Source: Streptomyces nigrescens
GTDB taxonomy: Bacteria > Actinomycetota > Actinomycetes > Streptomycetales > Streptomycetaceae
Length of the DNA: 64,000 nt
Assembly: GCA_024349765.1 (NCBI GenBank)
Contig: AP026074.1
Coordinates: 62,001 to 126,000 of the forward strand
Direction: 5' to 3'
Shown: positions 2,301 through 63,876 of the stretch, one piece after another
Layout of the letters: every line of letters starts with the position of its first letter
How positions within the stretch are numbered: the stretch's first letter is position 1
Notes under the pieces: generated by a model
Told to the model about the DNA's origin: nothing
Seen by the model: the letters and a program-made list of their open reading frames with translations, nothing else
The model's database searches: none
Translations under genes and position numbers: made by a program

Positions 2301-5300
2301 CGACCAGCCCACCGTGGACCGGCTGGTGGGGCACGGCGGGACCGTCGAGGACATCCACCCGCTCACCCCCACCCAGGCCGGCATGCTCTTCCACCGGCTG
2401 TCCCAGGACGACCAGAGCGTCTACCACCAGCAGCTCACCTTCGTGCTGGACGGCGTGCCCGACCCGCGGACGCTGGCCGCGGCCTGGCAGCGGATGACCG
2501 ACCGGACCGAGGTGCTGCGCGGCCGCGTCGTCTGGCACGACGTGCCCGAGCCGCTGTTCGTCGTCGAACGCCGCGCCGAGGTGCCGGTCACCCACCTGGA
2601 CTGGCGCGGCCTCACGGACGACGAACGGCAGCAGCGGCTGCGGGACCTGCAGGACCGGGACCGGCGGCGCGGCATCGACCTGGACACCGCCCCGCTGCAG
2701 CGCCTGACCCTGGCCCGGCTGTCCGCCACCGAAGTGCAGGTCGTGTGGTCCTTCCACCACCTGGTACTCGACGGCTGGAGCCTGTTCCAGGTGCTCTCCG
2801 ACGTGTTCCGCGGCCACGCGCTGCTGCGGGGCCCGGACGGCGGTGACGACGGCACCCCGACCGACACCGGTCTGCCGGTCCGCCGGCCGTTCCGCGACTA
2901 CGTCGCCTGGCTGCGCGACCGCGACCGGACCGAGGCCGAACGGCACTGGCGGGACCGCCTCGCCGGGCTCGGCGAACCCACCGCGCTGCCCTACGACCGC
3001 GAACCCACCGAGACCCATCGCGCGGAGTCCTCCGCGGCGGTGCGGGTCACCCTGCCCGCCGCCACCTCCCGCCGCCTGGACGACCTGGCCCGCGGCGCCG
3101 GCCTGACCGTCAACACCCTCGTCCAGGGCGCCTGGGCGCTGCTGCTGGCCCGCCAGACCGGCCGGCCGGACGTCGTCTTCGGCACCACCGTCTCCGGCCG
3201 GCCGCCCGAGCTGCCCGGCGTCGAGGCGATGAACGGCCTGTTCATCGCGACCGTCCCGACCCGGCTGACCGTCCCCGCCGACGGCACCGTGCGGGACTGG
3301 CTGCGCCGGGTGCAGGAGATCCAGAGCGACGACCGGCGCTTCGACCACGTACCGCTCGCCCGGCTCAAGGGCCTCACCGAACTCCCCGAACAGGCCCGGC
3401 TCTTCGACAGCATCGTGGTGTTCGAGAACTATCCGGTCGGCGACGATCTCGCCGCCGCGCACGGCCTGCGGCTGACCGGACTCGACGGCATCGAGACCAC
3501 CAACTATCCGCTCAGCCTCGTCGCCTACCCCGGGCCCGAACTGGCCCTGCGGCTCGGCTACGACCCGGAGCTGTTCGACGCCGCCACCGTCGAGCGGATG
3601 GCCGAGTACCTCACGGTCCTGCTGGCGGAGATGGCCGACGACGCCGGGCGCCCGCCGGCCCGGCTGCCGGTCCTCGGCGCCGCCCGCCGCCGGCAGGTGC
3701 TGGAGGAGTGGAACGACACCGCCACCGCACTGCCCGAGGACACCGTCGCCGGGCTGTTCGCCGCCCAGGTCCGGCGCACCCCCGACGCCCCCGCCCTGGA
3801 CACCGGCGACGGCACCCTGAGCTACCGCCAACTCGACGCCCGCGTCGAGGCGTTGGCCCAGCGGCTGACCGCCCTCGGTGTCCGCCCCGAACACCCGGTC
3901 GCCGTCCTCATGGATCGCTCGGCCGCCCTGGTCGTCGCCCAGCTGGCGCTCGCCAGGACCGGTGGCGTGTACGTTCCGCTGGACGGCCGCGCGCCCGAGC
4001 AGCGGCTGCGGCAGGTGCTGACGGAGAGCACCGCGGACCTCGTCCTCACCGACGCCGCCTGGCAGGACACCGCCGCCGCGGTGGCACCCGGCGGGCGCAC
4101 CCTGCTGGTGACCGACGAAGCGGGCGAGCCCGCCCCGGCCGACCTGCCCGCACCCGCGGTCCACCCGGACCACGTGCTCCAGCTGATGTTCACCTCCGGC
4201 TCCACCGGGCGGCCCAAGGGCGTCGCGGTGCGCCACCGGGACGTCGTGGCGCTCGCCTCGGACCGCGCCTTCGCCGGACACGACCGGGTCCTGCTGCACT
4301 CCCCGCAGGCCTTCGACGCCGCCACCTACGAGCTGTGGGTGCCGCTGCTGCGCGGCGGCCGGGTCGTCCTGGCCCCGCCCGCGGACGTGGACGCCGCCAC
4401 GGTCCGCCGCGCTATCGCCGAACAGGGCGTGACCTGCCTCTGGCTGACCGCCGGACTGTTCCGGCTGCTGGCCCAGGAGGACCCCGGCTGCCTGCGCGGC
4501 GCCCGGGAGGTGTGGACCGGGGGAGAGGCCGTACCGGGCGGGGCCGTGCGCCGCGTCCTGGAGGCCTGCCCCGGCCTCACCGTGGTCGACGGCTACGGAC
4601 CCACCGAGACGACGACCTTCGCCACCCGGCGGGTCTTCCGGGCCGGCGACCCGCTGCCCGCCACCCTCCCCATCGGACGCCCGCTGGACAACACCCGGGT
4701 CTACGTCCTCGACGGCACCCTGCAGCCCCAGCCGCCGGGCATCCCCGGTGAGCTGTACCTCGCCGGGGCCGGGCTCGCCCGCGGCTACCACGGCCGGCCC
4801 GGCGCCACCGCGGAGCGCTACCTCGCCGACCCCTTCGGCCCGCCCGGCAGCCGGATGTACCGCACCGGCGACCTCGTGCGCTGGAGCCCGGACGGCGAAC
4901 TGCACTTCGTGGGACGGGCCGACGACCAGATCAAGATCCGCGGCTTCCGCGTGGAACCGGCCGAGATCGCCGACCGGCTCACCCGCCACGACGCCGTCGC
5001 CGAGGCGCTGGTGGCCGTCCCCGCGGACGGCGGCCGCAAGCGCCTGGTCGCCTACCTCGTGCCCGCCGCGGGCGCGAGCCTGCCGCCGGTGGACGAGCTG
5101 CGCGCGGCGCTCGCCGCCGAACTGCCCGACTACATGGTCCCGGCCGCGTTCGTCACCCTGGACGCACTGCCGCTCACCGCCAACGGCAAGGTCGACCACC
5201 GCCGGCTGCCGACCCCCGACTGGTCCGCGGCCGGTGCCGGGGAGCATGTGGCGCCGCGCACCGAGACCGAGCGGATCCTCGCCGGGATCTGGTGCACCCT

Positions 5301-8300
5301 GCTGGGCGTGGCACGGGTCGGTGTCGAGGACAACTTCTTCACGCTGGGCGGCGATTCGATCCTCAGCATCCAGGTCGTCTCGCGCGCCCGGAAGGCGGGC
5401 CTGACCCTCACGCCCCGGGACGTGTTCCGGCACCCGACCGTCGCGGCCCTGGCGGCCGCCACCGGTTCCACCGCGCCCGTCACCGGCACCGACCCGGTCG
5501 ACGGGGACGTCGACCTCACCCCCATCCAGCACTGGTTCCTCGACGCCGACCCGCAGCGCCCCGGGTACTTCAACCAGTCCGTCGTCATCGAACTGGCCGA
5601 GGACCCCGACCCGGAGGCGCTGGAGACGGCGCTGCACGCGCTGTGGCGTCACCACGACGCGCTGCGGGCCCGCTTCGACCGGCGCCCGGACGGCACCTGG
5701 CACCAGCACTGCCCCGGCCCGGACGCGACGGACCCGCAGCTGCTGCGGATCCACCACCTGGCCGGCCGCACCGTCGAGGAGCGCACCGCCGAGGCCGACG
5801 CGGCCATGGCCGAGGCCCACGGCGGCTTCCGGCTCGCGGACGGCCCGCTGCTCGCCGCCCGGCTCTTCACGGGGAGACAACTCCCGGCATCCAAGCTCTT
5901 TCTGACGGTGCATCATCTGGTCGTCGACGGCGTCTCCTGGCGGGTCCTGCTGGAGGACCTGGAGACCGCCTACCGCCAGGCACGCACCGCCGAACCGGTC
6001 CGGCTGCCCGCCCGTACCACCTCCGTCCAGGAGTGGGCCCGGCGGCTGCGGGCCCACACGGAAGCCGGCGGATTCACCGGCGAGAGGGCCCACTGGGAGA
6101 CGGTGGCCGAGCACTGCGCGGCCCCGCTGCCGGTCGACGCCGACGGCGGCAACACCGTCGCCGACCTGCGCTCGGTCACCGTCCGCCTGGACCCGCGGGA
6201 CACCGCCGACCTGCTGCACAAGGTGCCCGGCGTCTACCGCACCCGGATCAACGACGTCCTGCTCACCGCGCTCGGCCGGGTACTGGCCGACTGGACCGGC
6301 CGCCGCACCGTCGCCGTCGGCCTGGAGGGCCACGGCCGCGAGGACCACCTCTTCGACGGCGTCGACCTGTCCCGTACGGTCGGCTGGTTCACCAGCCTGT
6401 TCCCGGTCGCCCTCGACGTGCCGGCCGGCGGCTGGGCCGATGCCCTCAAGTCGGTCAAGGAGCAGCTGCGCGCCGTACCCGGCCGGGGCCTCGGCCACGG
6501 AGCGCTGCGCCATCTCGCGCCCACCGCCGGGATCGCCGACGCAGCCCTCCCTCCGATCAGCTTCAACTACCTGGGCCGCTTCGACTGGACCGCCGACGGC
6601 GGCGGCCTGATCCGCGCGGTACGCGGTGGACTCGGCGGCGCCGCCGCACCCGAGTCCGTACGGCCGCACCTGCTCGACGTCGTGGGCCGGGTCGAGGGCG
6701 GCAGCCTGGAACTCACCTGGCACTACAGCCGCGGCGTGCACCGCGAGGAGACGGTCACCGCCCTGGCCGAGGGCATGCGCACCGCCCTGACGGAGCTCGT
6801 CGCGCACTGCGCCGCCCCGGACGCCGGCGGCCGCACCCCCTCCGACTTCCCGCTGGCCCGCCTCGACCAGACGGCCGTGGACCGGATCGTGGCCGACGGC
6901 CGCACCGTGGAGGACGTCTACCCGCTGACCCCGATGCAGGCCGGCATGCTCTTCCACGGCCTGATGGACCCGTCCTCCGACGCCTACTTCAACCAGGTCC
7001 AGCTGCTGCTGACCGGTGTCACCGACCCGGCGGCGCTGGCCACTGCCTGGCAGCAGACCGCCGACGCCAACCCCATGCTCCGCACGCGACTGGTGTGGCA
7101 GGAGACCCCCGAGCCACTCCAGATCGTCCAGACCCGGGCCACCGTCCCCGTCACCCACCACGACTGGACCGGCCGAAGCGCCGAGCGCGGCGAGGAGGCG
7201 CTGGCCGCCCTGCTCGCCGAGGACCGGGCGGCCGGCCTCGACCTCACCACCGCGCCCCTGATGCGGCTGACCCTGATCAGGCTCGCCGCCGACCAGGTGC
7301 GCCTCGTGTGGACCTTCCACCACATCCTGCTCGACGGCTGGAGCGCGGCCCAGGTCGTCGACGAGGTCTTCGAGCGGTACGCCGCGCTCACCGCCGGCCG
7401 CCGCCCCGAGGTCCCCTCGCGGGCGCCGTTCGCCGGCTATCTGCGCTGGCTGGCGGAGCAGGACGACACCCACGCCGAGCAGTACTGGCGCCGCACCCTG
7501 GCCGGCTTCACCGCGCCCACCGAACTGCCCCGCGACCGCACGCCGTTGGAGGCCCACCGCAGCGCGTCCTCGGACACCGTGCACCTCACGCTGGACGCGG
7601 CCGACTCCGCACGGCTGCGGGAGACCGCGCAGCGGGCCGGCCTCACCATGAACACCGTGCTCCAGGGCGCCTGGGGGCTGCTGCTCGGCCGCTACGGCAA
7701 CACCGACGACGTGGTCTTCGGCAGCACCGTCTCCGGCCGGCCCGCCGACCTGCCCGGCGTGGAATCCATGGTCGGCGTGTTCATCAACACCCTGCCGACC
7801 CGGGTGCGGATCGACGCCGACCGCCCGCTGCTGGACTGGCTGCGCGAGGTGCAGAGCGCCCAGTCGGAGTCCCGCCGGCACGACTTCGTCTCCCTCGCCC
7901 AACTGCAGAACTGGAGCGAACTCCCCGGCGGCGTCGGCCTGTTCGACAGCATCGTGGTCTTCGAGAACTACCCGTTCGACCGCGATGCCCTCGCCCGGCA
8001 CGGCCTGCGCGTGGCCCAGCAGCGCGAACTGGAGCCGACCAGCTACCCGCTCAGCGTGGTCGTCGCCCCCGGCGAGCGCCTCACCATCGCCCTGGACTAC
8101 GACCCGGCCGCCTTCGACGCCGCCACCATCGAGCGGCTCGGCGGCTGCCTGCGCGTGCTGCTCACCGAAATGGCCGCCGACCCGGAGCGCCGGCTCGCGG
8201 ACCTGCCGCTGCTGACCGCGGAGGAGAGCGCCCGCCTCCTCGACCGGTCCGGCGCACCGGCCGCCGCGACGCCGGACCGCGTACTGCCGGAGGTCTTCGA

Positions 8301-11300
8301 GGAACAGGCGGCCCGCACCCCCGACGCCGAGGCCGTGGTGGCCGGGACCGAAAGCCTCACCTACCGGGAACTCAACGCCCGCGCCAACCGGCTGGCCCGG
8401 CTGCTGATCGCCTCGGGCGCCGGCCCGGAACGGTTCGTCGCCCTCGCGCTGCCGCGCACCGCCGACCTGCCGGTGGCCCTGCTGGCCGTCCTCAAGAGCG
8501 GCGCCGGCTACCTGCCGGTCGACCCGGCGTACCCGGCCGAGCGGATCTCCTTCCTCTTCGACGACGTCCGGCCGGACATCCTCCTGACCACCTCCGACCT
8601 CGCCGCCCGCCTGCCCGACGGGCCCACCGTCCGCCTCGCGCTGGACGACCCGGCGCTCGCCGGACGCCTCGCGGAGCAGTCCGCCGCCGACCCCGCCGCC
8701 GCCGAGCGGACCGGCGCCCTGCTGCCCGCCCACCCCGCCTACGTCATCCACACCTCGGGCTCCACCGGCCGCCCCAAGGGCGTGGTCGTCACCCACGGCT
8801 CGGTGGTGGCCCTGGCCGACTGGGCGGCCACCGCGTTCGGCAGCCGGGGCCTGGCCCACGTCGTCGCCTCGACCTCGCTCAACTTCGACGTCTCGGTCTT
8901 CGAGCTGCTCTGCCCGCTGCTCTGCGGCGGCCGCATCGACCTCGTACCGGACCTGCTGGCGCTGGCCGAACGCACCGAACCCTGGACCGCGAGCCTGCTC
9001 AGCGCCGTCCCCTCCGCCCTCGGCCGGCTGCTCGCCGAGGACACCGTGCACGTCACCGCGGACACCGTGGTCCTCGCCGGCGAGGGGCTCGCCGCCCGCA
9101 CCGTCCGCGACGTCCGCGCCGCCGTCCCCGGCTGCACGGTCGCCAACATCTACGGCCCCACCGAGGCCACCGTCTACGCCACCGCCTGGACCTGCGACCC
9201 CGCCGACCCGGACCGCACCCCGCCCATCGGCAGCCCCGTCGGCGGCGCCCGCGCCTACGTCCTCGACGCCCGGCTCCGGCCGGTACCGGCCGGCGTACCC
9301 GGCGAGCTCTACCTCGCCGGCACCGGCGTGGCCCGCGGCTACTTCGCCCGGCCCGGCCTCACCGCCCGCCGGTTCCTCCCGGACCCGTACGGCCCCGCGG
9401 GCGCACGGATGTACCGCACCGGCGACCTCGTACGCCGGGACGCCGACGGCCAGTTGGTGTACCTCGGACGGACCGACGACCAGGTCAAGGTGCGCGGCTT
9501 CCGGATCGAACTCGGCGAGGTCGAGGCCGCGCTGACCCGCCACCCCGACGTGGCCGAGGCCGCCGCGCGGGTCGTCGAGACCGACGGCCACAAGCGCCTG
9601 ATCGGCTACGCCGTCGGCCGGGGCGCGACCCGCCCCGACCCCGCCGAGGTACGCGCCTTCCTCGCCGCGCGCCTGCCCGACCACCTGGTCCCCGCGGTCG
9701 TCGTCCCCCTGGACCGGCTCCCGCTGGGCACCACCGGCAAGCTCGACCGGCGCGCCCTGCCCGCCCCCGACTGGACCGCCCCCACCGGCGGCCAGGTGGC
9801 CCCGCGCACCGACACCGAACGGACGCTGGCCGCCATCTGGGCCCAGGTGCTGGGCGTGGAGGCGGTCGGCGTGGAGGACAACTACTTCACCCTCGGCGGC
9901 GATTCGATCCTCAGCATCCAGATCGTCTCCGCGGCCCGCCGCGCCGGCCTCGACCTGGCACCCCGGCACCTGTTCGTCCACCAGACCGTCGCCGAACTGG
10001 CCGCCGCCGTCGGGCAGTTGCCGGCCGCGGCGGTCCCCGCCGACCAGGGCCCGGTGGTGGGGGAGGTGCCGCTCACCCCCGTCCAGCACTGGCTGTTCGA
10101 GACCCTGCCCGGCACCGCGGCGCACTTCACCCAGTCGCTCTCCTACGAACTCACCGCCGACACCGACGAGGACGCGCTGCGCACCGCGCTGGCCGCGGTG
10201 CTGGAACACCACGACGTGCTGCGCTCCCGGTACGCACCGGCCGCCGACGGCCGCTGGCGGCAGCACACCGCGGCCCCCGGCGCGGCCCCCGACCTGGAGG
10301 TCCGCGACCTGCCCGGCCGGGACCCGAAGGACCGGGCCACGGCGCTGCGCGCCCTGTCCGATGAGCTCTGCGCGGGCTTCGACCTGGCCCACGGGCCGCT
10401 GCTGAAGACCGTGCTGTGCCGCCCGGCCGACGACGAGGAGGCCCGCCCGGTGCTGCTGCTGGCCGCCCACCACCTGGTCGTGGACGCGGTGTCCTGGCGC
10501 ATCCTGCTGGAGGACCTCGACACCGCCTACCGCGCGGTGCGCGCCGGGGGCCGGGCCGGGCTCGGGCCCCGGACGACCTCCTTCCGGGACTGGGCGCAGC
10601 GGCTCCGGGACCACACCGCGGCCGGCGGCTTCGACGACGAACTCCCGTACTGGACCCGGGCGCACGCGCCCGCCGCCCTGCCCACCGACCGCACCGGCCG
10701 CAACACCGCCGCCTCCGAGGACACCGTGACCGTCCGGCTGGAGGCCGAGGAGACCCGCCGGCTGCTCCAGGACGTGCCCGACGCCTACCGGACCCGGATC
10801 AACGACGTCCTGCTGTGCGCCCTGGGCCGCGTACTGGCCCGCTGGACCGGGCACGACCGGGTACTGGTCGGGCTGGAGGGCCACGGCCGCGAGGAGATCT
10901 TCGACGACGTCGACCTGTCCCGCACGGTCGGCTGGTTCACCACCATGTTCCCGGTCGCGCTGGACGTGCCGCCGGGCGCCGGCCTCGCCACGGTCCTGAA
11001 GTCGGTGAAGGAGGGCCTGCGCGCGCTGCCCCGGCACGGCCTCGGCCACGGCGCCCTGCGCCACCTGCGCGGCCCCGCCGCCCCGGGCCTCCCGGACGCC
11101 CCGCAGATCGGCTTCAACTACCTCGGCCAGCAGGACTGGCACGCCTTTGCCGGGGACGGCCTGCTGCACGCACCGTACGGCCCGCTGGAGGGCGGCATGG
11201 ACCCGGCGGCCGAACGGCCCCAGCTGATCGACGTGGTCGGCCGGGTGACGGACAAGCGGCTGGAGTTCAGCTGGTCGTACTCGACCGAGCGGCACCTGCC

Positions 11301-14300
11301 CTCCACCGTGACCCGGCTGGCCGAGGAGATGGCCGCCGAACTGCGGGAGATCGTCCGGCACTGCGCAGAACCGGGTGCCGGCGGTCGCACGCCCTCCGAC
11401 TTCCCGCTGGCCCGCCTCGACCAGGACACCGTCGACCGGCTGGTCGGCACCGGCCGGGACGTCACCGACCTCTATCCGCTGACCCCCACCCAGACCGGCA
11501 TGGTCTTCCACGGCCTCGACGCCCCCGAGGAGGGCCTCTACGTCGAACAGGCCACCTTCGTCGTGGACGGGGTGCGCGACCCGCGGGTGCTGGCCGCCGC
11601 CTGGCAGCACGTCGTCGACCGCACCCCCGTGCTGCGCACCGCGGTGCTGCTGCACGAGGCGCCCGCCCCGCTGCAGGCCGTGCACCGCTTTGTCGCCCTG
11701 CCGGTGACCGAGCTGGACTGGAGCGACCTGCCGCCGGTCGAGCGGGCGGCCGCGCTGGAACGGCTGCTCGCCGAGGACCGGGCCCGCGGCATGGCCCTGG
11801 ACCGGGCCCCGCTGCTGCGGCTCACTCTCATCCGGCTCGCCCCGTCCGAGGTCCGGGTCGTGTGGACCTTCCACCACGTCCTGCTGGACGGCTGGAGCGT
11901 CTTCCAGGTGCTCGCGGACGTCTTCGCCTGCCACGCCGCCCTCACCGTCGGCACCGAGCCCCGGCTGCCGGACCGCAGACCGTTCGCGGACCACGTCGCC
12001 TGGCTCGCCGCCCAGGACCCGGCCCCGGCCGAGGCGCACTGGCGCCGGGCGCTGGCCGGGCTCACCGCCCCCACCCCGCTGCCCTACGACCGGCGCCCGG
12101 CCCCCGGCGCCGCCACCCGCTCCGGCACCTGGCTGTCGCTCCACCTCGACGAGGAACGCACCGCCGCGCTCCAGGACTTCGCCCGGCGCCACCACCTCAC
12201 CCTCAACACCGTCGTCCAGGGTGCCTGGGGCCTGCTGCTGTCCCGCTGGAGCGGCGAGCGGGACGTCTGCTTCGGCTCGACGGTCTCCGGCCGGCCCGCC
12301 GACCTGCCCGGCGCCGAGGCCATCCCGGGCCTGTTCATCACCACCCTGCCGGTACGCGTGGACGTCACCGGCGACACGCCCCCGGCCGAGTGGCTGCGCG
12401 GCGTCCAGACCGCGCAGGCCGACGCCCGCGGATGCGACCACGTCGCGCTGTCGGACCTGCACGACTGGAGCGAACTGCCCGCCGGCACCCCGCTGTTCGA
12501 CAGCCTGGTGGTCTTCGAGAACTACCCGATCACCACCACGGCCGCCACCGCGCACGGCCTCCGGGTACGCGATCTGCACGCGCTGGAGGCCACCAACTAC
12601 CCGCTGACCGTGGTGGTGTCGCCCGGCTCCCGGCTGACCGTCGAACTCGGCTACGACCCGCGGTACTTCGCGGAGTCCACCGCCGGGTCCCTGGCCGGAC
12701 AGCTCGTGCACACCCTCGGCGCGCTCGCGGAGCCCGGTGCGGCGACCTCCCTGGACCGCATCGACGTGCTGCCGCCGGAGGAGCGCGCCCGGCTGACCGA
12801 TCGGTCCGCCCGGCCGGACGGCGACGCCGTGCCGCCCGCGACCCTGGCCGCGCTCATCGAGGCGACGGTCGACCGCTCACCCACCGCGCCCGCGCTGGAG
12901 GATCCCGAACTGCGGCTCAACTACGCCGAGTTGGAGGACCGTGCCAACCGCCTCGCGCACCGGCTGATCGCCCGCGGAACCGGCCCCGGCGATCTCGTCG
13001 CCCTGGTGCTGCCCCGGTCGGCCGACATGATCGTCGCCCAGCTGGCCACCGCCAAGGCGGGCGCCGCCTACCTGCCCGTCGACCCCGGCTACCCGGACGA
13101 GCGGATCGCCCTGATGCTGCGCGACGCGGCCCCCGCCGTCACCCTGCGGGCCGCGGACGTCCGGGACCTCCTGGCGGCCGGCCCGGACGGCACCCCGTCC
13201 CACCGCCCCACCGACCGCGACCGGACCCGCCCGCTCGACCTCGACGACCCGGCCTACGTCATCTACACCTCCGGATCCACCGGCACCCCCAAGGGCGTCG
13301 TCGTCACCCACCGCGGACTGGCCGGCTTCGCCGCCGCCGAGGCCGACCACTACCAGGTCCGGCCCGGGGACCGCGTGCTGGCCTTCGCCACGCCCAGCTT
13401 CGACGCGTCCGTACTGGAGCTCTGCATGGCCCTGCCGGCCGGCGCCTGCCTGGTGGTCCCGCCGCCCGGCCCGCTGCTCGGCGCGCAACTCGCGGACGTG
13501 CTGCGAACCGCCCGCATCACCCACACCCTGCTGCCACCCGCCGCGCTCGCCACCGTCCCGCCGGACACCCCCGGCACCCTGCCGGACCTGCGCACCCTCA
13601 TCGTCGGCGCGGACACCTGCGGCGCCGAACTGGCCGGCCGCTGGGCCCCGCACCACCGGATGGTCAACTCCTACGGCCCCACCGAGACCACCGTCGTCGC
13701 CACCTGGTCCGATCCGCTGCCGGCCGACGGCGGTACGCCCCCGATCGGCCGCCCGCTGCCCGCCACCGGCGTCTACGTCCTCGACGCCCGGCTCCGCCCG
13801 GTCGCCGACGGCGTCCCCGGCGAACTGTGGATCAGCGGCCCCTCCCTGGCCCGCGGCTACCTGGGCCGCCCCGGCCTGACCGCCGCCCGCTTCCTCGCCG
13901 ACCCCTACGGCCCGCCGGGCACCCGCATGTACCGCACCGGCGACCTGGTGCGGCGCGACGCCCACGGCGACCTCCACCACCTCGGCCGCACCGACCACCA
14001 GATCAAGCTGCGAGGCCACCGCATCGAGGCGGGCGAGGTCGAGGCCGCGCTCGCCCGCCACCCGGCCGTCCGCGACGCCGTGGTGACCGTACGGGAGGAC
14101 GAGCCCGGACGGCCGCGGCTGGTGGCCCATCTGCTGGCCGCACCCGGGGCCGACACCCCGATCGGGCCGGAACTACGGGCCTTCGCCGCCCGTACGCTGC
14201 CCGCCCACATGGTCCCCGCCGCCTTCGCCGTCCTGGAGCGCTTCCCGCTCACCGAGAACGGCAAGACCGACCGCGCCGCCCTGCCCGCGCCGGAACCGGA

Positions 14301-14604
14301 ACCCGAAGGGCCCGCCGGGCACACCGCCCCGCGCACCCCCACCGAGGAAGTCCTCGCGGACCTCTGGTCCCAGGTCCTGGAGACGGCCGTGGGCGTCGAG
14401 GACGACTTCTTCGCCCTCGGCGGCGACTCGCTGCGCAGCCTGCACATCGCCGCCCGCGCCAACGAGACCTTCGGCGTGGCCCTGACCCCCCGGGACGTTC
14501 TGGCCTCCCGCACCGTCGCCGCCCTCGCGGAGCTGGTGGAGGAGCACGTCCTGCGCGAACTCGAAGACGCCGCACGCGGCGACCACGACCCCGACGAACG
14601 GTGA
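1..14604 (+). CDS. Nonribosomal peptide synthetase, 5'-truncated by window edge: (A)-T-E / C-A-T-E / C-A-T-E / C-A-T
   Basis: Cytoplasmic multimodular enzyme that activates amino acids as aminoacyl-AMPs, loads them on carrier domains and condenses them. The reading frame is open from base 1 and begins inside an A domain (core A5 region, [15 protein letters not shown]), so the true start lies upstream. At least 4867 residues are visible. All four T domains keep LGGDS. The three C domains keep HHxxLDGWS. The three E domains keep HHLVVD(G/A)VSW and SRTVGWFT. The last module ends in T (LGGDSLRSL) with a short acidic tail and no E domain or thioesterase. The stop is 11 bp before the next NRPS start, so the two are co-transcribed and probably consecutive in the assembly line. 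The product is unknown. Confidence 0.97.
2340..6880 (+). other. NRPS module 1: C(D-accepting)-A-T-E, Val-like pocket
   Basis: The C domain starts at [16 protein letters not shown] and has HHLVLDGWS. The A pocket read by eye is D-A-Y-W-W-G-G-T-F-K. This resembles the established valine code DAFWIGGTFK, differing at two positions, so a branched aliphatic residue is inferred. T (LGGDS near 5350) is followed by E with [10 protein letters not shown], giving a D residue. Confidence 0.85.
6900..11430 (+). other. NRPS module 2: C(D-accepting)-A-T-E, unassigned pocket
   Basis: C begins at [16 protein letters not shown]. The A pocket reads D-V-F-S-V-A-I-V-Y-K, which I cannot match to a known code. The E domain has [10 protein letters not shown] (Ala for the usual Gly, common in the family) and SRTVGWFT, so it looks active. 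A D residue is expected. Confidence 0.85.
11455..14604 (+). other. NRPS module 3: C(D-accepting)-A-T, unassigned pocket shared with module 8
   Basis: The C domain ([25 protein letters not shown]) accepts the D residue from module 2. The A pocket reads D-A-L-L-I-G-S-V-V-K, identical to module 8. There is no E domain, so an L residue is expected. The following gene accordingly opens with an LCL-type C domain. Confidence 0.85.
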
Positions 14605-34782: not shown

Positions 34783-34986
34783 ATGGACGAGAACGCCCGC
34801 TACCAGGTCCTGCGCAACGACGAGGACCAGTACTCGCTCTGGCTCGCCGACCTGGAGATCCCCGCCGGCTGGCACGCCGTCGGCAAGGAGGGCACCCAGG
34901 ACGAGTGCTCCGCCTACGTCGACGAGGTCTGGACCGACATGCGCCCCCGCAGCCTGCGGGAGCGCATGGAGAACGCCGACGCCTGA
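34783..34986 (+). CDS. MbtH-like NRPS accessory protein
   Basis: A 67-residue protein with the family signature (WLADLEIPAGWHAVGKEGT, then YVDEVWTDMRPRSLRERM), including the conserved tryptophans. MbtH-like proteins bind adenylation domains and are needed for their folding or activity. It lies 88 bp after the second NRPS gene, in the same direction. A strong AAGGAG sits 7 bp before the ATG, so it is most likely the last gene of the NRPS operon. A perfect hairpin follows at 35005. Confidence 0.97.
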   Translation: MDENARYQVLRNDEDQYSLWLADLEIPAGWHAVGKEGTQDECSAYVDEVWTDMRPRSLRERMENADA

Positions 34987-55849: not shown

Positions 55850-56410
55850 TCAGGGGTGCCAGATCTCCTTGATGCTGTTGATCTGACCCTCGGAGTCCAG
55901 GGTGATGTCGTAGATGTTCCCGGAGCAGGTGTAGGGCGCCTTCACGGCACCGGGGTTCGTCATGCAGTCGCCGGCGTGCACCCACAGCTGGCCGACCGGA
56001 ACCGACTTCGTGCGGCCCGGCCCGGTGGACAGTTCCGCCTTGACGTCCTGGGCGAAGAGGTAGTACTTGGCCTTGCCCTGACCGTGGTAGATCCAGTCGT
56101 TGGGCGTGCAGACCGGCTTGGCGTCCTTGGCGGACAAGGAGCCCTTCGACGGGGGAACGGCGGGCTCGACCATCTTGTGCCCGGCCGGCAGCTTCGGCGG
56201 CGTCCCGCAGTCGCCGGGGCCGTCGGCCCGGTCCGTGGCCTTGTCGCTCGGAGCCGGCTTCTTCGACGGCTGGGCGGAGGCGCTGGAGCCACCGCTGCCG
56301 GAGCCGGCGCCGTCGCCGTAGGGGTCGTCCTCCGGGCCGCAGGCGGTGAGGCCGACACCGAGCGTGGCGACGACCGCAAGCGTGCTGATGAGTCGTTGAG
56401 TTGGCTTCAT
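55850..56410 (-). CDS. Lipoprotein, secreted
   Basis: 186 residues. Signal peptide MKPTQRLISTLAVVATLGVG followed by the lipobox LTAC with Cys24. Then a Ser/Gly/Pro/Lys linker and a soluble domain with four further cysteines in DCGTPP, PVCTPN, GDCMTN and YTCSGN, likely two disulfides. Anchored on the outer face of the membrane. ATG at 56410 behind GGGGGAC. No known family recognised. Confidence 0.88.
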   Translation of the reverse strand: MKPTQRLISTLAVVATLGVGLTACGPEDDPYGDGAGSGSGGSSASAQPSKKPAPSDKATDRADGPGDCGTPPKLPAGHKMVEPAVPPSKGSLSAKDAKPVCTPNDWIYHGQGKAKYYLFAQDVKAELSTGPGRTKSVPVGQLWVHAGDCMTNPGAVKAPYTCSGNIYDITLDSEGQINSIKEIWHP

Positions 56411-56524
56411 GCCGAGAGTCCCCCGTGATGTGCAGAATGACGTGATCATGATTGATCGGGAGAGTTCTACACCAGGGAGCTGGGCGCAAGCCAATCGCGG
56501 GGGCGGCGTCCGCCGGAACCCCCT

Positions 56525-56830
56525 TCACCGCTCCGGTACTTCGACCGTCACCAGGGTGCCGTGGCTGCCCGGGCGCACGGCGTGGCGGGTGTCCGCCGCC
56601 ACCAGGTACATCTCGCCCGGGCCCACCGTGACCTCGGCGTCGTCGACGGTCAGTTCCAAGGTGCCGTCGAGTACGAGCAGTACCTCCGGTGTGCGGTGGG
56701 CCTCCTCCTCCAGGGGGAGCTCGTTCATGCGGAGCACTTTGACGGTGGCCGTTCCCACCTCGGCCAGGGGGCGGGAGCTCCAGGCGTCCGGCAATGCGGC
56801 CGCGGTCCGGAAGAGGTTGCTGACATTCAA
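56525..56830 (-). CDS. Small cupin-domain protein
   Basis: 101 residues, one cupin barrel: EEEAHRTPEVLLVLDGTLEL and VGPGEMYLVAADTRHAV. Candidate metal ligands are His, Glu and the second His. ATG at 56830, with GGAGG about ten bases upstream. It lies 117 bp after the NRPS stop in the same direction but probably has its own promoter. Substrate unknown. Confidence 0.88.
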   Translation of the reverse strand: MNVSNLFRTAAALPDAWSSRPLAEVGTATVKVLRMNELPLEEEAHRTPEVLLVLDGTLELTVDDAEVTVGPGEMYLVAADTRHAVRPGSHGTLVTVEVPER

Positions 56831-56947: not shown

Positions 56948-59923
56948 TCATGTTCGGGTGGGCTGCCGGTCCAGGGACGGGGTGATCATCGAGGCGAGGA
57001 CCGAAGCGAGGTCTTCGCCTGGTAGGGGGCGCAGGGCGCGTGCCAGGCGGTCGGAGTCGTAGTGCCAGTGGTGGTCCAGGTCGGGGTGGATGTCGTCCGA
57101 TTCCTCCAAATTGCCTTTCAAGCCGAGGAGTTGGGAGAGCTCGGCGGCGAGGTCCTGCCAGGCGACGTGGCCGCTGATGGCGTTGGCCACGCCGTGGACG
57201 GGGGTGTCCAGGCAGGAGACCACCGCCCGGGCCAGCGCCGCGCCGTGCACCCAGGCGGCGCCGTACCAGGCGTGGCCGCCGGCGCCCGGGCGGGGGACCG
57301 CCAGCGGCCGGCCCTCGCGGATCGCCTGGTAGAGCACCCCGGTGGCGCCCCAGCGCAGCTGGTCGCGCAGTCGGTCGTGCGGGCCCCAGACCAGCGGGGA
57401 ACGGACCGCGCTCGCGCCGCCCCGCCCCGCGGTGCCGGCCGCCCGGAGCAGCCGCGCCTCACAGTCGAGCTTCGCCCGGCCGTAGGGGCTGAGCGGTTCG
57501 TGCGAGGGGGACTCCTCAACCACCCGACCGCCGCCGGGATGCCCGTACGCGTCCACGCTGCTGACGAAGACGAACGGGCCCCGCGACCAGGCGTCCACCA
57601 TGGCGTCCATCGCCGCCACATCCACCTCGGGGCGGGTGAAGGTGCTGGCCGCGTGGATGACGGCGTCCGCGCTCCGGACGGCGGTGCGCAGCCCGTCGAG
57701 GTCGGTGAGGTCGCCCTCGACGACGTCCACCCCGTCCGCCGCGACCAGGTGCGCGGATTCGGGACGCGCCAGGGCCAGTACGGGGCGTCCCTGGGCGGCG
57801 AGTTCCCGCAGGAGGAAGCTGCCGACGCCGCCGGTGGCGCCGGTGACCAGTACGGTGCCCGTCCGCGCGCGGCCCGGCTGTCCCGCCGCTGTCCGGCTCG
57901 TCCGCCCCGTTTGCCCCGGGCGGGTGGCCGGGCGGAGGGACGCGGCGGCGCGTTCCGCCGCACGCCCGTCGAGGAGGGCGGAGACCGCGCGGGGAGTGCG
58001 GGCCTGCATGATGTCCAGGCCGGTCAGGGGCAGGGTCAGCGCACGACGCAGGCGTTCGGCGAGCTGTACGGCGGCGAGCGAGTGGCCACCGAGGGCGAAG
58101 AAGTCGTCGTCCGGGGCGGGAGTGCGGCCCAGCAGCGCCGCGAATCCCTCGCGTACGGCGTCGGCGTGGGGTCCCTCGGGTGCGGGCAGCGAGGGGAGGC
58201 CGGGAAGGCGCACCGGGTCCACCGTGCCGTCGGCGGCGCGAGGGAGAACGTCGAGCAGGGTGACGGCGGCCGGGACGAGGTCGGCTGCCAGGCGGTCCCG
58301 GAGATGGGCACGGAGCTCCGCGGGTGACGGGCCACCGATCTCCCGCAGGACCGCGTAGGCGAGCAGCGGACCACCGGGAGGGGAGACCACCGCGGCGTCG
58401 GAGAGGTGGGGGTGGGAGCGCAGGATCCGTTCGGCCGGGTGCGCGTCACTGTCACCCAACTCGACGGCAGTGGAGGGAAGTTGTACTCCCTCCGCCTCGG
58501 TCAGCTGAGAGAGCGGCAGGTCGTCCGGGGCGGTCGCGAGCGCGGTGAGGAGGGCCGCGTAGGTGGCGCCGAGGCCGGTGGCCGCCTCCTCGTCCAGTGC
58601 GGCGCGGCGGTACTGGACCAGGGCGGCCGGCCGATCGGTGTCCACGAGACCGAAGGAGAGGTCGAACTTTGCTTCGCCCACGCCGACTTCGACGTACTCC
58701 GCGTCCGTCCCGGGCAGGCGCAGCGTCGTCGGTGCGCCGAGGACGTCCGCGGTCACCCGCACCAGGGACGTTCCGTCCGCGCCCCGCGCGGCGGCGCCGA
58801 GCCGGTCCACGATGAGGTCGAACGGTACGTCGGTGTGCTGCTGGGCATCGAGCAGTGCGGCACGCACCCGCTTCAGCAGCGTGCCGAAGGACGGGTCGCC
58901 GGAGGCGTCGACGCGCAGCGGGAGGGTGTTGACGCACAGCCCGACCAGTCCGCGCATGGCCGTTCCCCGGCGGTGCGTACCGGCGATGCCGATCACCAGG
59001 TCGTCCTGCCCGGTACCGCGGTGCAGGGTGGCGAACGCGGCGGTGAGCGCCACGGTGAACGGCGTGGCCTGGTGGCGCCGGCCCAGCTCGCGCAGCGCGG
59101 CCGGCACCTCGGGGGCGAGCGGTGTGGTGTGCGATCCGGTGGGCCGGGCGGTGAGGTCGGTGGGCGGGTGCGCCGGGCCGGGGAGTCGCGGGGGAGCGGC
59201 GCCGTCGAGGAGGGCGTGCCAGTGCCGCAGGCCCTCGTCGAGACGGCCGGGCGCGGCTCGGTGCTCGTGCCGGGCGAAGTCGGCGTACTGGGGCGGTCGG
59301 GGCCGCGGCTGTGCGGGGTGGGATCCGGGGGCGGTGGCGGAGGCCTCCCGGGAGCGGGCGGCGGTCTCGTAGAGCGCGGCGAGCTCGTCCGCCACCATCT
59401 CCAAGGACGGTCCGTCGATGGATATGTGATGGAACGTCAGCAGCGCCGTGTGGTCCTGTGGGCCGTGCCGCAGGACGAGTGCGCGGGGCACGGTCCCGGT
59501 GGCGAGGTCGAACGGGCGGCGGGCCTCCGCGGCCAGCAGCCGTGCGGCCTCTGCCGGGTCGGCCGGGACCACCGGCACCGCGATCGACTCAGGTGCCGGA
59601 AGCACCTCCTGGCACGGCTCGCCGTTCCGCTGTACGTAACGGGTGCGCAGGATCTCGTGCCGGCGGACGAGCCCGGTCAGTGCGGAGGCCAGCGCGTCGA
59701 CGTCGAGCGGGCCGCGCAGCCGGGTGGCGAACGGCACGCTGTACGAGGCGCCGTCGTGACCGAGCCGGTCCATCAGCCACATGCGGTGCTGGGCGCGGGA
59801 GAGCGGTGCCGGGCCGCGGTCGGTGGAACCGGGGCCGGTGGCGGTGCGGGCCGCGGCGCGTTCCCGTGCCCGGCGCAGCAGTTCCTCCTGGAGGGCGGGG
59901 GCGGCGGGGCGGTCAGTGGCCAT
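56948..59923 (-). CDS. NRPS: C - adenylation C-terminal subdomain only - T - SDR/epimerase-like domain
   Basis: 991 residues. A condensation domain (LSRAQHRMWLMDRLG; HHISIDGPS near residue 165) occupies about 35-470. At about 490-575 only the small C-terminal subdomain of an A domain is seen (ERILRSHPHLSDAAVV to LLDVLPRAADGTVDPVRLP). The catalytic lysine motif has become DGTVDPV, and the large ATP- and substrate-binding part is absent. T follows (ALGGHSLAAVQL, Ser near 611), then an extended short-chain dehydrogenase with VLVTGATGGVGSFLL near 690, FVSSVDAYG and the YGRAKLD (YxxxK) catalytic motif. The ATG at 59923 overlaps the previous gene's end. The T domain must be loaded in trans. The SDR may release the product reductively or modify it while bound. 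Confidence 0.9.
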   Translation of the reverse strand: MATDRPAAPALQEELLRRARERAAARTATGPGSTDRGPAPLSRAQHRMWLMDRLGHDGASYSVPFATRLRGPLDVDALASALTGLVRRHEILRTRYVQRNGEPCQEVLPAPESIAVPVVPADPAEAARLLAAEARRPFDLATGTVPRALVLRHGPQDHTALLTFHHISIDGPSLEMVADELAALYETAARSREASATAPGSHPAQPRPRPPQYADFARHEHRAAPGRLDEGLRHWHALLDGAAPPRLPGPAHPPTDLTARPTGSHTTPLAPEVPAALRELGRRHQATPFTVALTAAFATLHRGTGQDDLVIGIAGTHRRGTAMRGLVGLCVNTLPLRVDASGDPSFGTLLKRVRAALLDAQQHTDVPFDLIVDRLGAAARGADGTSLVRVTADVLGAPTTLRLPGTDAEYVEVGVGEAKFDLSFGLVDTDRPAALVQYRRAALDEEAATGLGATYAALLTALATAPDDLPLSQLTEAEGVQLPSTAVELGDSDAHPAERILRSHPHLSDAAVVSPPGGPLLAYAVLREIGGPSPAELRAHLRDRLAADLVPAAVTLLDVLPRAADGTVDPVRLPGLPSLPAPEGPHADAVREGFAALLGRTPAPDDDFFALGGHSLAAVQLAERLRRALTLPLTGLDIMQARTPRAVSALLDGRAAERAAASLRPATRPGQTGRTSRTAAGQPGRARTGTVLVTGATGGVGSFLLRELAAQGRPVLALARPESAHLVAADGVDVVEGDLTDLDGLRTAVRSADAVIHAASTFTRPEVDVAAMDAMVDAWSRGPFVFVSSVDAYGHPGGGRVVEESPSHEPLSPYGRAKLDCEARLLRAAGTAGRGGASAVRSPLVWGPHDRLRDQLRWGATGVLYQAIREGRPLAVPRPGAGGHAWYGAAWVHGAALARAVVSCLDTPVHGVANAISGHVAWQDLAAELSQLLGLKGNLEESDDIHPDLDHHWHYDSDRLARALRPLPGEDLASVLASMITPSLDRQPTRT

Positions 59924-61868
59924 CGGTGTCCTCCGGGGCGTGCGGGTGAAGATCACCGTGCGCGGCGAGCAACGCCCGCTCGACCAGGGCGGCCTGGCCG
60001 GCCACGGTGGGGAAGCCGAAGAAGTCGGCGAGCGACAGCTCGACGCCGAGTTCCTCGCGGAGGTCGTCGGTGACGGCGAGCGCGAGCAGGGAGTGGCCGC
60101 CGAGGGCGAGGAAGTCGGCGTCCGGCCGGGTCACATCACAGCCGAGGGAACGACTCCAGACGTCGGCGACGGCCTGCTCCAGGGGCGTCAGCGGTCCGTC
60201 CGGGGCGGACGCCGGCGACCCGTCCGACGCATCCGCACCGCTTGAACCATCCGAACCCACGGAACCATCGGGCCCGTTCGCGGTGAGCAGGTCGGCCAGC
60301 GCGCGGCGGTCGACCTTGCCGGAGGCGTTGAGCGGCAGGTCGGCGACCACGGTCAGTTCGTCGGGTACCAGATGGGCGGGCAGGGCCGCGGCCAGCCGGT
60401 CGCGCAGGGCGTCCGGCCGGGGGACGGGGCCGGGTGCGGCGACGACGAAGGCGACCAGCCGGGCGTCGTCGGGGGAGGGGCGGTGCACGGTGACGGCCGC
60501 ATCGGCCACCTCGGGCTGCTCCCGTAGCGCGTACTCGACCTCCTGCGGCTCGATCCGGAAGCCGCGCACCTTGACCTGGTCGTCCGTACGGCCGTGGAAG
60601 TCGAGCACGCCGTCCGGGCGCCGGGAGACGACATCGCCGGTGCGGTAGAGGCGGCCCCACTCGGGGTGGGTGGTGAAGCGTTCGGCGGTCAGCTCCGGAC
60701 GGCCGGTGTAGCCCAGCGAGAGGCGACTGCCGCCGACCCACAGTTCGCCCCACTCGCCGTCCGGGACGGGCCGGCCGGCCTCGTCCAGGACGTGCGCGGT
60801 GGCCCCCGCGAGGGGACGGCCGATCGGTATCTGTCCGGCACAGTCGGCGGCGGTGACCCGGTGGGCCGTGGCGAACGTCGTGGTCTCCGTCGGACCGTAG
60901 CCGTTGATCAGCTCCAGCCAGGGGAACGCCTGCAGTACCTCGCGGGCATGATGCGCGGCGAGGGCCTCGCCGCCGACCACGACCGTGCGCAGCGGCGCGA
61001 AGATCCGCGAACGGCGCACCGCGAGCTGGTGGAAGAGCGCGGTGGTGAAGAAGGCCACCGTGACGCCGTGCCGCTCCACCTCCTGTGCCAGGTCCTCGAG
61101 CGAGGGCCGCTCGACGGTGCACACCACGACCGCGGCGCCGTTGGCGAGGGCGCTCCACACCTCGAAGGTCGACGCGTCGAAGGTCAGCGGCGAATGGAAC
61201 AGCACCCGGTCGCGGGGCGTCAGGGTGAGGTACGCCGGGGCGCTGACCAGCTCGGCTATCGCGCGGTGGGCGATCGCCACGCCCTTGGGGCGACCGGTGG
61301 AGCCGGAGGTGAACATGATGAACGCGGCGGCGTCGGGGAGCGGCCCGGCAGCCTGGGGGCCGCCGGCCCGCACCTCGTCGGGCTGCGGTTCTTCCGTATG
61401 CGGTTCGTCGGGCAGGGCGAGGGTCGGGCCGGCCGGAGCGGCGGATTCCAGCAGCTTGGCGTCCCCGACGGTCAGCGTCACACCGGCCTCCGCGGCCAGT
61501 GCCTCGCTCCGCGGGCGCGGGTGCGCAGGATCGAGCGGTACGCAGACGGCGCCCGCCCACCACAGCGCGAGCTGGGCGATGACGGTACGGGCCGAGCGGG
61601 GCGTCAGCAGCGCCACCGCGTCACCCCGGCGGACTCCCCGGCGGCGCAGATGCCCGGCGAGCGCACGGGCGGCACGGGCCAGCTGCGCATACGTCAGCGT
61701 GGAGTCGCCGTCCGCCACGGCCAGCGCGTCCGGGGTCCGTTCGGCGTGCCACGCCACGAGTGCCGGGAGGCCGGTCGGGGCGGGCTCGCTCGACGGGGTG
61801 CTTTCGGTGGGCACGGGCCCTTCCTTCCAGGTGTCGTCGGTGTGCGGAGCCGGCGGAGTGGTGGTCAT
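59913..61868 (-). CDS. NRPS adenylation-carrier didomain (A-T), aliphatic pocket
   Basis: 651 residues. A domain with [58 protein letters not shown] and NASGKVDRR, then T with LGGHSLLAL. The pocket read by eye is D-A-F-F-V-G-G-T-F-K, near the valine code DAFWIGGTFK, so Val or a related aliphatic residue is inferred. The ATG at 61868 lies one base after the upstream stop, and the 3' end overlaps the next start by 11 bp. It has no C domain, so it either starts a chain or supplies the downstream C-T-SDR protein. Confidence 0.93.
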   Translation of the reverse strand: MTTTPPAPHTDDTWKEGPVPTESTPSSEPAPTGLPALVAWHAERTPDALAVADGDSTLTYAQLARAARALAGHLRRRGVRRGDAVALLTPRSARTVIAQLALWWAGAVCVPLDPAHPRPRSEALAAEAGVTLTVGDAKLLESAAPAGPTLALPDEPHTEEPQPDEVRAGGPQAAGPLPDAAAFIMFTSGSTGRPKGVAIAHRAIAELVSAPAYLTLTPRDRVLFHSPLTFDASTFEVWSALANGAAVVVCTVERPSLEDLAQEVERHGVTVAFFTTALFHQLAVRRSRIFAPLRTVVVGGEALAAHHAREVLQAFPWLELINGYGPTETTTFATAHRVTAADCAGQIPIGRPLAGATAHVLDEAGRPVPDGEWGELWVGGSRLSLGYTGRPELTAERFTTHPEWGRLYRTGDVVSRRPDGVLDFHGRTDDQVKVRGFRIEPQEVEYALREQPEVADAAVTVHRPSPDDARLVAFVVAAPGPVPRPDALRDRLAAALPAHLVPDELTVVADLPLNASGKVDRRALADLLTANGPDGSVGSDGSSGADASDGSPASAPDGPLTPLEQAVADVWSRSLGCDVTRPDADFLALGGHSLLALAVTDDLREELGVELSLADFFGFPTVAGQAALVERALLAAHGDLHPHAPEDTDGH

Positions 61869-61869
61869 C

Positions 61870-63876
61870 TCAGTCCCGCCCCGGCTTCGGGTCCGCATCC
61901 GCACGGCGGGCGTCCACCAGGGCCGCCACGGCGCGCAGATCGGGCTGGCGGAGCAGCTCCGGAGCGCGCAGCCGGATGCCGGTGTCGCGCTGGATGGCGG
62001 CCAGCAGACGGGCGGCGATCAGTGAGGTGCCGCCCGCCGCGGTGAAGTTCTCGGCCAACGTGGTCTCCGGGCGGGCGAGCAGATCGCGCACCGCGCCGAG
62101 CACGAGCCGTTCCCCGGGGGTGGCCCCGTCGGAGAGCACCTCGGACCCGGAGGGCTCCGCGGGGCCGGACGGGCCGTGCGAGCCCGGTGATCCGGCCGAG
62201 CTGCCCTCCTCGGTCGCCCGGCGCACCAACTCCGCCCGGTCCACCTTGCCGTTGGCGTCCAGGGGGAAGACGTCGACGAGGCGCACGGCCGAGGGGACGG
62301 CCTGCTCGGGCAGCCAGGCCCGGACCGCCGTCAGCAGCCCCTCCGCGAAGCCCTCCGCCGACGGCGCCGTACCGCTCGGGGTGGTGCCCCCGGCCGGCCG
62401 CACGTACGCCACCAGGCGGGCGCGGCCGTCGGACGTGCGGGGCGCGACGACGACGGCGCTGCGCACCGCCGGGTCCTGCTCGAACGCGGCCGCCACCTCG
62501 GCCGGTTCGATCCGCACACCGCTGATCTTCACCTGGTCGTCGAGGCGTCCGAGGAACTCCAGCTGCCCGTCCTCCCGCATCCGCACCCGGTCCCCGGTGC
62601 GGTACAGCCGGTCCACGCCGGGCGGCAGGGCGAGGCCCGCGGGCGGGGCGGTGAAGCGGCGCGCGGTCAGTTCGGGGTCCAGGTAGCCGAGCGCCAGGCA
62701 CTGCCCGCCGAGACGCAACTCGCCCTCGGTGCCGCGGGGGACGGGGCGGCCGTCGGCGTCGGTGACCACCACGGTGACGCCCGGTACCGGTCCGCCGATC
62801 GGCGGCGCGCTCTCGACGTCCTCCGACCCGGGGGCGTCCGTACCGCGCATGGCGTACGAGGTGGCGAGGACGGTGGCCTCGGCCGGGCCGTAGGCGTTGT
62901 GGACGGTGGCCGTCACCTCCGCGCCCGGACGGCGGCGCAACCGGTCGCCACCGACCATGAGATGACGCAGTGTCAGGCCGCGGGGCCAGGGGCGGTCGAG
63001 GAGCGGCTCGATCATCGGGGTGGCCCCGATCGCCACCGATACCGCCGCCCCGCGCCACCAGTCGGTGAGCACCTGCGAGTCCCAGCGGACCTCGTCCGGG
63101 GCCGGCACCAGCGCGGCGCCGGACGTCAGTCCGGCCCACAGTTCCAGTACGTGCGGGTCGAAGGCGACGCCGATGAGCAGGGAATGGCGGTCGCCCGGAG
63201 CCAGGCCGGTCTCCGCGCGGTACCAGTCGAGCAGGGTGCCGAGGCCCGCCTCGGCGACCGCGACCGCCTTGGGGCGGCCGGTGGAACCAGAGGTGAGTAC
63301 GGCGTAGAACGCCTCGGCGGGGGCACGGCGGGCCCCCTCGCCGGGTCCGTCCGCGAACGCTGCGACGGCCTTCGCGGGGGCATTGGCACCCACCACGGGC
63401 AGGGGCAGCACCACCTCGTCGACCAGCTGCTCGGACGTCCGGAAACGGGGCGGCAGCAGCGCCGGATCGCCGATCAGGCAGGCCACGTCGAGGTCCTCGG
63501 TGACGGCCTCGACCCGGCGTTCACCGGGCTGCGGGCCGAGCGGCAGGTAGACCGCGCCGAGCCGGGCGAGGGCGACGGCGGTCACCACCAGCGCGGCCGA
63601 CCGGTCCAGGCAGACACCCACCAGGTCGCCGGGGCGGACCCGGTCGCGGAGCGCGTCCGCCACCTCGTCGGCGGCGGTGCCGATCTCCCGGTACGTCCAG
63701 GTGTGCGCGCCGTCGACGACCGCGGGTGCCTCGGGTGTGCGGGCGGTCCACTCCGTGAAGCGGGCGAGCACACCGGCCGGGGCGCCGGCCGCGGGCGTGG
63801 CGCCGTGGGCGATGCTCAGCGGGCCGTCCTGGGCCCGGGAGGCCTGGGGTGCCTGGGGGGTCGGGTTCGGGGACAT
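61870..63876 (-). CDS. NRPS adenylation-carrier didomain (A-T), unusual pocket
   Basis: 668 residues. A domain motifs [31 protein letters not shown] (Ala for the usual Thr in GPTE), LYRTGDRV, LGRLDDQVKISGVRIEP and DANGKVDRA. The pocket reads D-P-L-G-M-G-A-V-L-K, which I cannot match to a known code. The T site is GGTSLIAA in place of GGHS; the pantetheine serine is kept. ATG at 63876, GGAGG four bases upstream, overlapping the preceding gene's stop (TGATG). Confidence 0.92.
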   Translation of the reverse strand: MSPNPTPQAPQASRAQDGPLSIAHGATPAAGAPAGVLARFTEWTARTPEAPAVVDGAHTWTYREIGTAADEVADALRDRVRPGDLVGVCLDRSAALVVTAVALARLGAVYLPLGPQPGERRVEAVTEDLDVACLIGDPALLPPRFRTSEQLVDEVVLPLPVVGANAPAKAVAAFADGPGEGARRAPAEAFYAVLTSGSTGRPKAVAVAEAGLGTLLDWYRAETGLAPGDRHSLLIGVAFDPHVLELWAGLTSGAALVPAPDEVRWDSQVLTDWWRGAAVSVAIGATPMIEPLLDRPWPRGLTLRHLMVGGDRLRRRPGAEVTATVHNAYGPAEATVLATSYAMRGTDAPGSEDVESAPPIGGPVPGVTVVVTDADGRPVPRGTEGELRLGGQCLALGYLDPELTARRFTAPPAGLALPPGVDRLYRTGDRVRMREDGQLEFLGRLDDQVKISGVRIEPAEVAAAFEQDPAVRSAVVVAPRTSDGRARLVAYVRPAGGTTPSGTAPSAEGFAEGLLTAVRAWLPEQAVPSAVRLVDVFPLDANGKVDRAELVRRATEEGSSAGSPGSHGPSGPAEPSGSEVLSDGATPGERLVLGAVRDLLARPETTLAENFTAAGGTSLIAARLLAAIQRDTGIRLRAPELLRQPDLRAVAALVDARRADADPKPGRD

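Follow-up and report, generated by a model that had tools for sequence, protein, structure and literature searches.

The DNA analysed here, called the window, is a stretch of 64,000 nucleotides of Streptomyces nigrescens that corresponds to bases 62001-126000 of contig 2 (1,073,703 bp) of this genome. Near its end, on the minus strand, lies the terminal gene of a nonribosomal peptide synthetase (NRPS) operon. The encoded protein, P0001, combines a condensation (C) domain, a remnant of an adenylation (A) domain, a thiolation (T) domain, and a terminal domain of the extended short-chain dehydrogenase/reductase (SDR) type, referred to below as the reductase (R) domain. A preliminary description of the window had proposed this architecture, and translation and Pfam searches confirmed it. 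Gene boundaries came from a simple GC3-based caller and were checked with tblastn. The features of the gene are as follows:

56948..59923, minus strand: terminal NRPS gene with the order C, A remnant, T, R; 2976 bp, 991 amino acids, ATG at 59923 and stop codon ending at 56948
58520..59809, minus strand: Condensation domain, residues 39-468 (Pfam, 197.5 bits)
59411-59431, minus strand: canonical active-site motif of the C domain, HHISIDG
58208..58432, minus strand: A remnant, the C-terminal A subdomain after the A8 hinge, residues 498-572 (about 75 residues)
58217..58231, minus strand: degenerate A10 motif DGTVD, residues 565-569, in which Thr replaces the catalytic Lys
57968..58159, minus strand: T domain, residues 589-652 (PP-binding over residues 589-651, 48 bits), with GGHSL and Ser615 at 58079-58081
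56951..57865, minus strand: R domain, an extended SDR of about 300 amino acids, with TGATGGVG at 57821-57844 and YGRAK at 57470-57484
Residues 691-911, minus strand: match to Epimerase PF01370 (69.5 bits)

The region between the C and T domains matched AMP-binding_C (Pfam, residues 498-565, 26.8 bits against a cut-off of 24.5), and no match to the AMP-binding core PF00501 was found in the protein up to an E-value of 1. Both neighbouring A-T proteins matched PF00501 (278.7 and 195.8 bits) as well as the C-terminal part, thus the absence of the core is specific to the terminal gene. In an alignment with the operon's three intact A domains, the remnant begins just past the A8 hinge and ends at DGTVD, where the intact domains read SGKVD, NGKVD, and GGKPD, all three with the Lys; A8 and A10 are the motif names that we take to apply to this alignment. 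The missing PF00501 match and the DGTVD motif bear out two earlier suggestions, that only the C-terminal A subdomain is kept and that its GK motif is degraded. A complete A domain of divergent sequence was rejected as an explanation of the remnant, since the PF00501 match, the A8 hinge, and the A10 Lys are all absent; neither the core nor the Lys expected of a functional A domain was found in the terminal protein.

Structure prediction, which the preliminary description had proposed as a check, supported a folded subdomain. The AlphaFold2 (AF2) model of the remnant together with the T domain had a mean predicted local distance difference test score (pLDDT) of 85 and a predicted template modelling score of 0.55. 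Using Foldseek, the remnant matched the A subdomain alone in acyl-CoA ligases, with a root-mean-square deviation (rmsd) of mostly 1.5-2 over about 75 columns, for example in 4gxr (1.6 over 75 columns). The best-ranked Foldseek chains span the A subdomain and T domain together with an rmsd of 12-16, because the two domains sit differently, and the rows with the A subdomain alone are the cleaner evidence. Profile matches of the remnant fell on the A subdomain and T region of LgrA, EntF, and SrfA-C, with E-values of 1e-19 to 1e-20. A narrow open-access search found no literature on a truncated A domain or A remnant, and we make no claim that such a remnant is unreported.

With regard to the other end of the protein, the preliminary description had noted GATGGVG and YxxxK in an SDR that differs from classical thioester reductases. 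Both motifs are present, as TGATGGVG and YGRAK, and the terminal domain is an extended SDR with TGxxGxxG, Ser, and YxxxK. Comparison with hidden Markov models of reductase and epimerase families also agreed with the earlier view, as the Epimerase family listed above was matched and the domain remained below both reductase cut-offs. It scored 14.4 bits against NAD_binding_4 (PF07993, cut-off 20.1). For Thioester-redct (TIGR01746, cut-off 213.35) the score was 18.6 bits over 36 positions; this model had no positive control, the best score in this genome being 122.5 bits and none of 14 control genomes exceeding the cut-off. The R domain of one relative (L023) scored 19.3 bits against the NAD_binding_4 cut-off of 20.1. 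Classical R domains were not among the best 60 of 133 PDB profile matches, nor among the 50 matches listed in each of two structure searches, which is no proof of their absence. The AF2 model of the R domain had a mean pLDDT of 82, with the five models ranging from 66 to 82. The domain resembles classical NRPS R domains in that it is of the SDR type, follows a T domain, and is proposed to release the chain reductively, and it differs from them in its scores below both cut-offs.

The operon to which the gene belongs contains five NRPS genes with three A domains, when a weakly matching C-like gene is counted as the fifth, and spans about 13 kb (L011 1948-15139). Upstream of the terminal gene, it consists of:

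59913..61904, minus strand: AT2, A-T didomain gene with A code DAFFVGGTFK, probably for the third residue
61870..63879, minus strand: AT1, A-T didomain gene with A code DPLIMGAVLK, probably for the starter residue; candidate in-trans donor
Open reading frame (ORF) 63876-67841 (window scale; L011), minus strand, past the window edge, likely start near 67202: C-A-T gene with the third A domain, code DVENVGVISK
67391-68716 (window scale; L011 12391-13716), minus strand, beyond the window: stand-alone divergent C-like gene
68805-70139 (window scale), minus strand, beyond the window: major facilitator superfamily (MFS) transporter gene

The A codes were read by motif anchors on the alignment. Based on code tables, we take AT1 to be aromatic-like, the C-A-T protein Arg-like, and AT2 Val-like, which would fit the scaffold of antipain, chymostatin, and omicsynin. 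The stand-alone C-like protein scored 15.5 bits against Pfam Condensation, below the cut-off of 30.6. The C domain of the C-A-T protein carries the ureido signature EHHLIHDG, and the signature EHHxxHDG has been reported to appear both sufficient and necessary for ureido formation in current examples (PMC11212132).

A contig scan for relatives gave 26 loci, 18 of which were used (L013-L030, 52-93% identity), and eight weaker ones (L031-L038, 29-36% identity) were dropped unannotated. Alignment A1 has 18 rows (our gene and 17 loci), A2 consists of 18 R domains, and A3 of 15 remnant-bearing rows; L029 was left out of all three as its contig ends inside the gene, and it probably carries the remnant, because its match reaches query residue 566. 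The R domain was found at an E-value of 1e-25 or better in 18 of the 199 genomes of a genus sample, our genome included. These counts and the 18 named close relatives led us to reject the notion of a unique terminal gene. In a phylum sample the R domain was found at 1e-30 in 1 of 296 genomes, our own, thus there were no R-domain relatives in other settings to compare.

The key residues are well conserved among these relatives. Our gene and all 18 named relatives have the HHxxxDG motif of the terminal C domain, and Ser615 of the T domain as well as T694, G695, T697-G701, Y814, G815, and K818 of the R domain are invariant over the 18 rows of A1. AT1, AT2, the C-A-T gene, and the stand-alone C gene were each found with tblastn in 17 of the 18 loci, some matches being partial (L029 at its contig end, and AT2 in L018 and L024), and the MFS gene in 15. 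EHHxxHDG occurs in 17 of the 18 named loci and is absent in the truncated L013. Over our operon and 17 loci, the code of the C-A-T protein starts with DVEN and that of AT1 with DP in all 18, and that of AT2 with DAF in 17 and DGF in one. The HHxxxDG motif of our stand-alone C-like protein reads EHTACDG, and xHTxCDG was seen in only 4 of the 18 relatives. In Streptomyces endophytica HNM0140 (L013 9827-13616), only the last third of AT2 (A subdomain and T end) and the terminal gene are kept. This is a complete chromosome in which the best match to our C-A-T protein has 36% identity and none among the matches listed exceeds 42%, therefore the cluster there is truncated. In L018 (8725-10564), AT2 appears split, with a best match covering residues 21-388 followed by a separate ORF at 9590-10564, possibly due to a frameshift or an assembly error.

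The remnant itself is present in 15 of the 18 rows of A1, and none of the 15 aligned remnants (A3) has the A10 Lys. In the other three rows the C domain runs directly to the T domain:

L027 10561-13119, L028 10576-13209, and L030 10534-13173: remnant-less relatives (A1, Pfam, tree)

When four relatives were tested for AMP-binding_C, L023 scored 25.1 bits and L027, L028, and L030 gave no match. In the tree, the three genes without the remnant group together as one clade (100/99), comprising S. netropsis, S. orinoci, and MUM 203J, beside the remnant-bearing K. paracochleata, which suggests a single loss of the remnant, the direction of change depending on a midpoint root. Since this clade does without it, the remnant is dispensable in its three members. 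Elsewhere it is under purifying selection, with a dN/dS of 0.07 to 0.51 in ten pairs, rough estimates from 75 codons only. This range overlaps that of the C domain (0.23-0.42) and lies above that of the T domain (0-0.19) in all ten pairs, thus constraint on the remnant is similar to that on the C domain and weaker than that on the T domain, which is not evidence of catalysis. Overall, the remnant is an A subdomain that is folded but lacks what adenylation requires, and some relatives can dispense with it.

Without the core and the A10 Lys in the remnant, the T domain depends on charging in trans. The preliminary description had named one of the two A-T neighbours or an unseen A domain as loader. 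The need for trans charging stood, and the unseen A domain is that of the C-A-T gene past the window edge, which is Arg-like; as to the exact donor, we infer AT1 or the C-A-T A domain. We consider it very likely that the gene encodes the last module of a synthetase for ureido tetrapeptide aldehydes of the antipain/chymostatin/omicsynin type, with a trans-charged T domain and aldehyde release. In such a synthetase, AT1 would load the starter amino acid (aromatic-like), and the ureido-forming C (Curea) domain of the C-A-T protein would join it to the second residue (Arg-like) via a carbonyl, likely from bicarbonate; in the published Curea logic, the loading A-T gives the outer residue and Curea-A-T the inner one (PMC11212132). 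AT2 would supply the third residue (Val-like), the stand-alone C-like protein probably assisting in its joining. For the terminal T domain, one of the A domains used at another position would do the charging, the canonical C domain of the module would attach the remainder of the chain, and the R domain, which probably uses NADPH, would carry out a two-electron reduction of the thioester and release the aldehyde. The predicted product is Phe-CO-Arg-Val-X-al, in which X is the residue without a dedicated A domain. The C-terminal aldehyde is Phe-al in chymostatin and MAPI and Arg-al in antipain; the former would be obtained with AT1 as donor and the latter with the C-A-T A domain. The paired products antipain and chymostatin, made by the omicsynin strain Streptomyces sp. 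1647 (PMC12783407), and antipain and MAPI, putatively identified in strain LN699 (PMC11212599), fit one T domain accepting more than one trans donor.

For the end step, the preliminary description had considered an unusual reductive release or an on-carrier epimerisation or reduction. Reductive release is the best reading, because deletion of the SDR-type R domain of OmnF abolished the omicsynin aldehydes and left carboxylates (PMC12783407), and on-carrier epimerisation is disfavoured.

The omicsynin (omn) cluster has been described as having five NRPS genes and three A domains, and has been called homologous to the deimino-antipain and chymostatin clusters (PMC12783407). The clusters for deimino-antipain/antipain (MIBiG BGC0002051) and chymostatin, which have been described as generally homologous to omn, likewise make ureido tetrapeptide aldehydes with discrete NRPS modules. 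OmnF ends in an extended SDR of about 300 amino acids, distinct from characterised R domains and lacking a C-terminal helix-turn-helix motif (PMC12783407). Our operon thus shares with omn the numbers of NRPS genes and A domains, and with OmnF the type and length of the end domain. Complementation was done with an omnF fragment of 2847 bp, compared to 2976 bp for the gene here, and the available description of OmnF mentions no A remnant (PMC12783407). The CmnI and VioI proteins for capreomycin and viomycin also have T and C domains but no A domain, and in-trans loading of such a bacterial module was shown for CmnI, which is charged by the A domain of another module; they differ in having two domains only, in belonging to another pathway, and in that the available text describes no R domain and mentions no A remnant (PMC12400406). 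The preliminary portrayal of our gene as an unexplained oddity did not hold, since its layout and R domain type have been described for omicsynin relatives (PMC12783407). Two observations had been named that would speak against the preliminary interpretation. The first, a full A domain in trans as a known partner in a described cluster, was found in part, as candidate full A domains lie in trans in a described type of cluster; the second, clear grouping of the end domain with standard R domains, was not seen. The gene is a real and mechanistically interesting module, and the cluster type, the unusual R domain, and the shortage of A domains have already been described for omicsynin and its antipain/chymostatin relatives.

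A further difference is that the omn cluster has omnC, for an AnpI-like arginine cyclase; the candidate for it in the relatives has no close counterpart in our genome. Among the relatives, an acyl-CoA-dehydrogenase-like gene lies between the C-A-T gene and AT1 in 5 of the 18 loci (L023, L027, L028, L029, L030):

L030 5345-6502: acyl-CoA-dehydrogenase-like gene, candidate arginine cyclase in the OmnC/AnpI position

Judged by position and name order, this gene may encode the OmnC/AnpI-type arginine cyclase; if so, an acyl-CoA-dehydrogenase-like protein would be an unusual kind of enzyme to catalyse that reaction. A cyclase candidate for our cluster was sought and rejected, as none of the 37 matches in our genome (best 38% identity, by E-value) lies at the operon; therefore Arg, and not capreomycidine, would be expected in the product.

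Several points weigh against the assignment as a termination module of this type. The A codes were read from motif anchors and GrsA numbering. The proposed orthology with OmnF and the antipain cluster is based on architecture, signatures, and domain properties, and not on direct alignment. Sugar epimerases head both the profile and the structure matches of the R domain, and the literature searched contained no loading experiment for the antipain/chymostatin/omicsynin family. The available text on omicsynin leaves unstated which five NRPS genes are meant, so that taking the stand-alone C-like gene, with its score of 15.5 against 30.6 bits, as one of them is our own reading (PMC12783407). Finally, purified OmnF reportedly gave only trace aldehyde from an N-acetylcysteamine thioester (SNAC) substrate in vitro (PMC12783407).

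Three alternatives were considered. Charging of the T domain by an A domain outside the operon seems improbable to us. The operon A domains are putative loaders, and the genome has other NRPS loci and three MbtH genes, none of the latter beside the operon, yet all three A-domain genes adjoin the terminal gene in 17 of the 18 named loci, some with partial matches. Moreover, in the known products of the family the C-terminal residue is the same as the first or the second one, which makes an additional specificity unnecessary. It is less likely still that the terminal SDR is an epimerase or ketoreductase working on the carrier, with release by hydrolysis or by another enzyme, a role to which the best profile and fold matches, NAD-dependent epimerases, would point, and which the OmnF deletion disfavours. 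Least probable is a decaying, non-functional module, for which the mostly lost A domain and the truncated S. endophytica locus could be cited, but the key C, T, and R residues are invariant over 18 rows, the dN/dS of these domains is below 0.45 in each of the ten pairs, and the operon is complete in our genome.

The surroundings of the operon contain other genes. Directly downstream of the synthetase gene lies a small cupin gene (101 amino acids, window 56525-56830), and at 55850-56494 a gene for a 214-amino-acid protein, the relatives of which adjoin the same synthetase gene in L013 and L014. The plus strand carries another NRPS cluster, of very large size (window 40-14604 and 10416-34694), with a first ORF of 4854 amino acids containing six C, four A, and four T stretches, followed by an overlapping ORF of 8092 amino acids, and an MbtH gene at 34786-34926.

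As a termination module, the gene gives an odd-looking synthetase a place in a class of protease inhibitors of practical use. Its non-classical R domain has the appearance of a compact domain for aldehyde release, of a kind missed by the standard R-domain models tested. The remnant might have been kept for docking or spacing, allowing aromatic-type and Arg-type A domains to compete for one T domain, an idea that we hold to be rather unlikely; if true, the partners available would set the warhead residue of the inhibitor. The family would then form a natural series of A-domain loss, from an assumed full ancestor, via the form with the A subdomain only, maintained by purifying selection, to the form without any A domain in the netropsis/orinoci/MUM 203J clade. 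The 18 close relatives provide material for studying how one T domain chooses its trans A domains, and whether the remnant helps in this.
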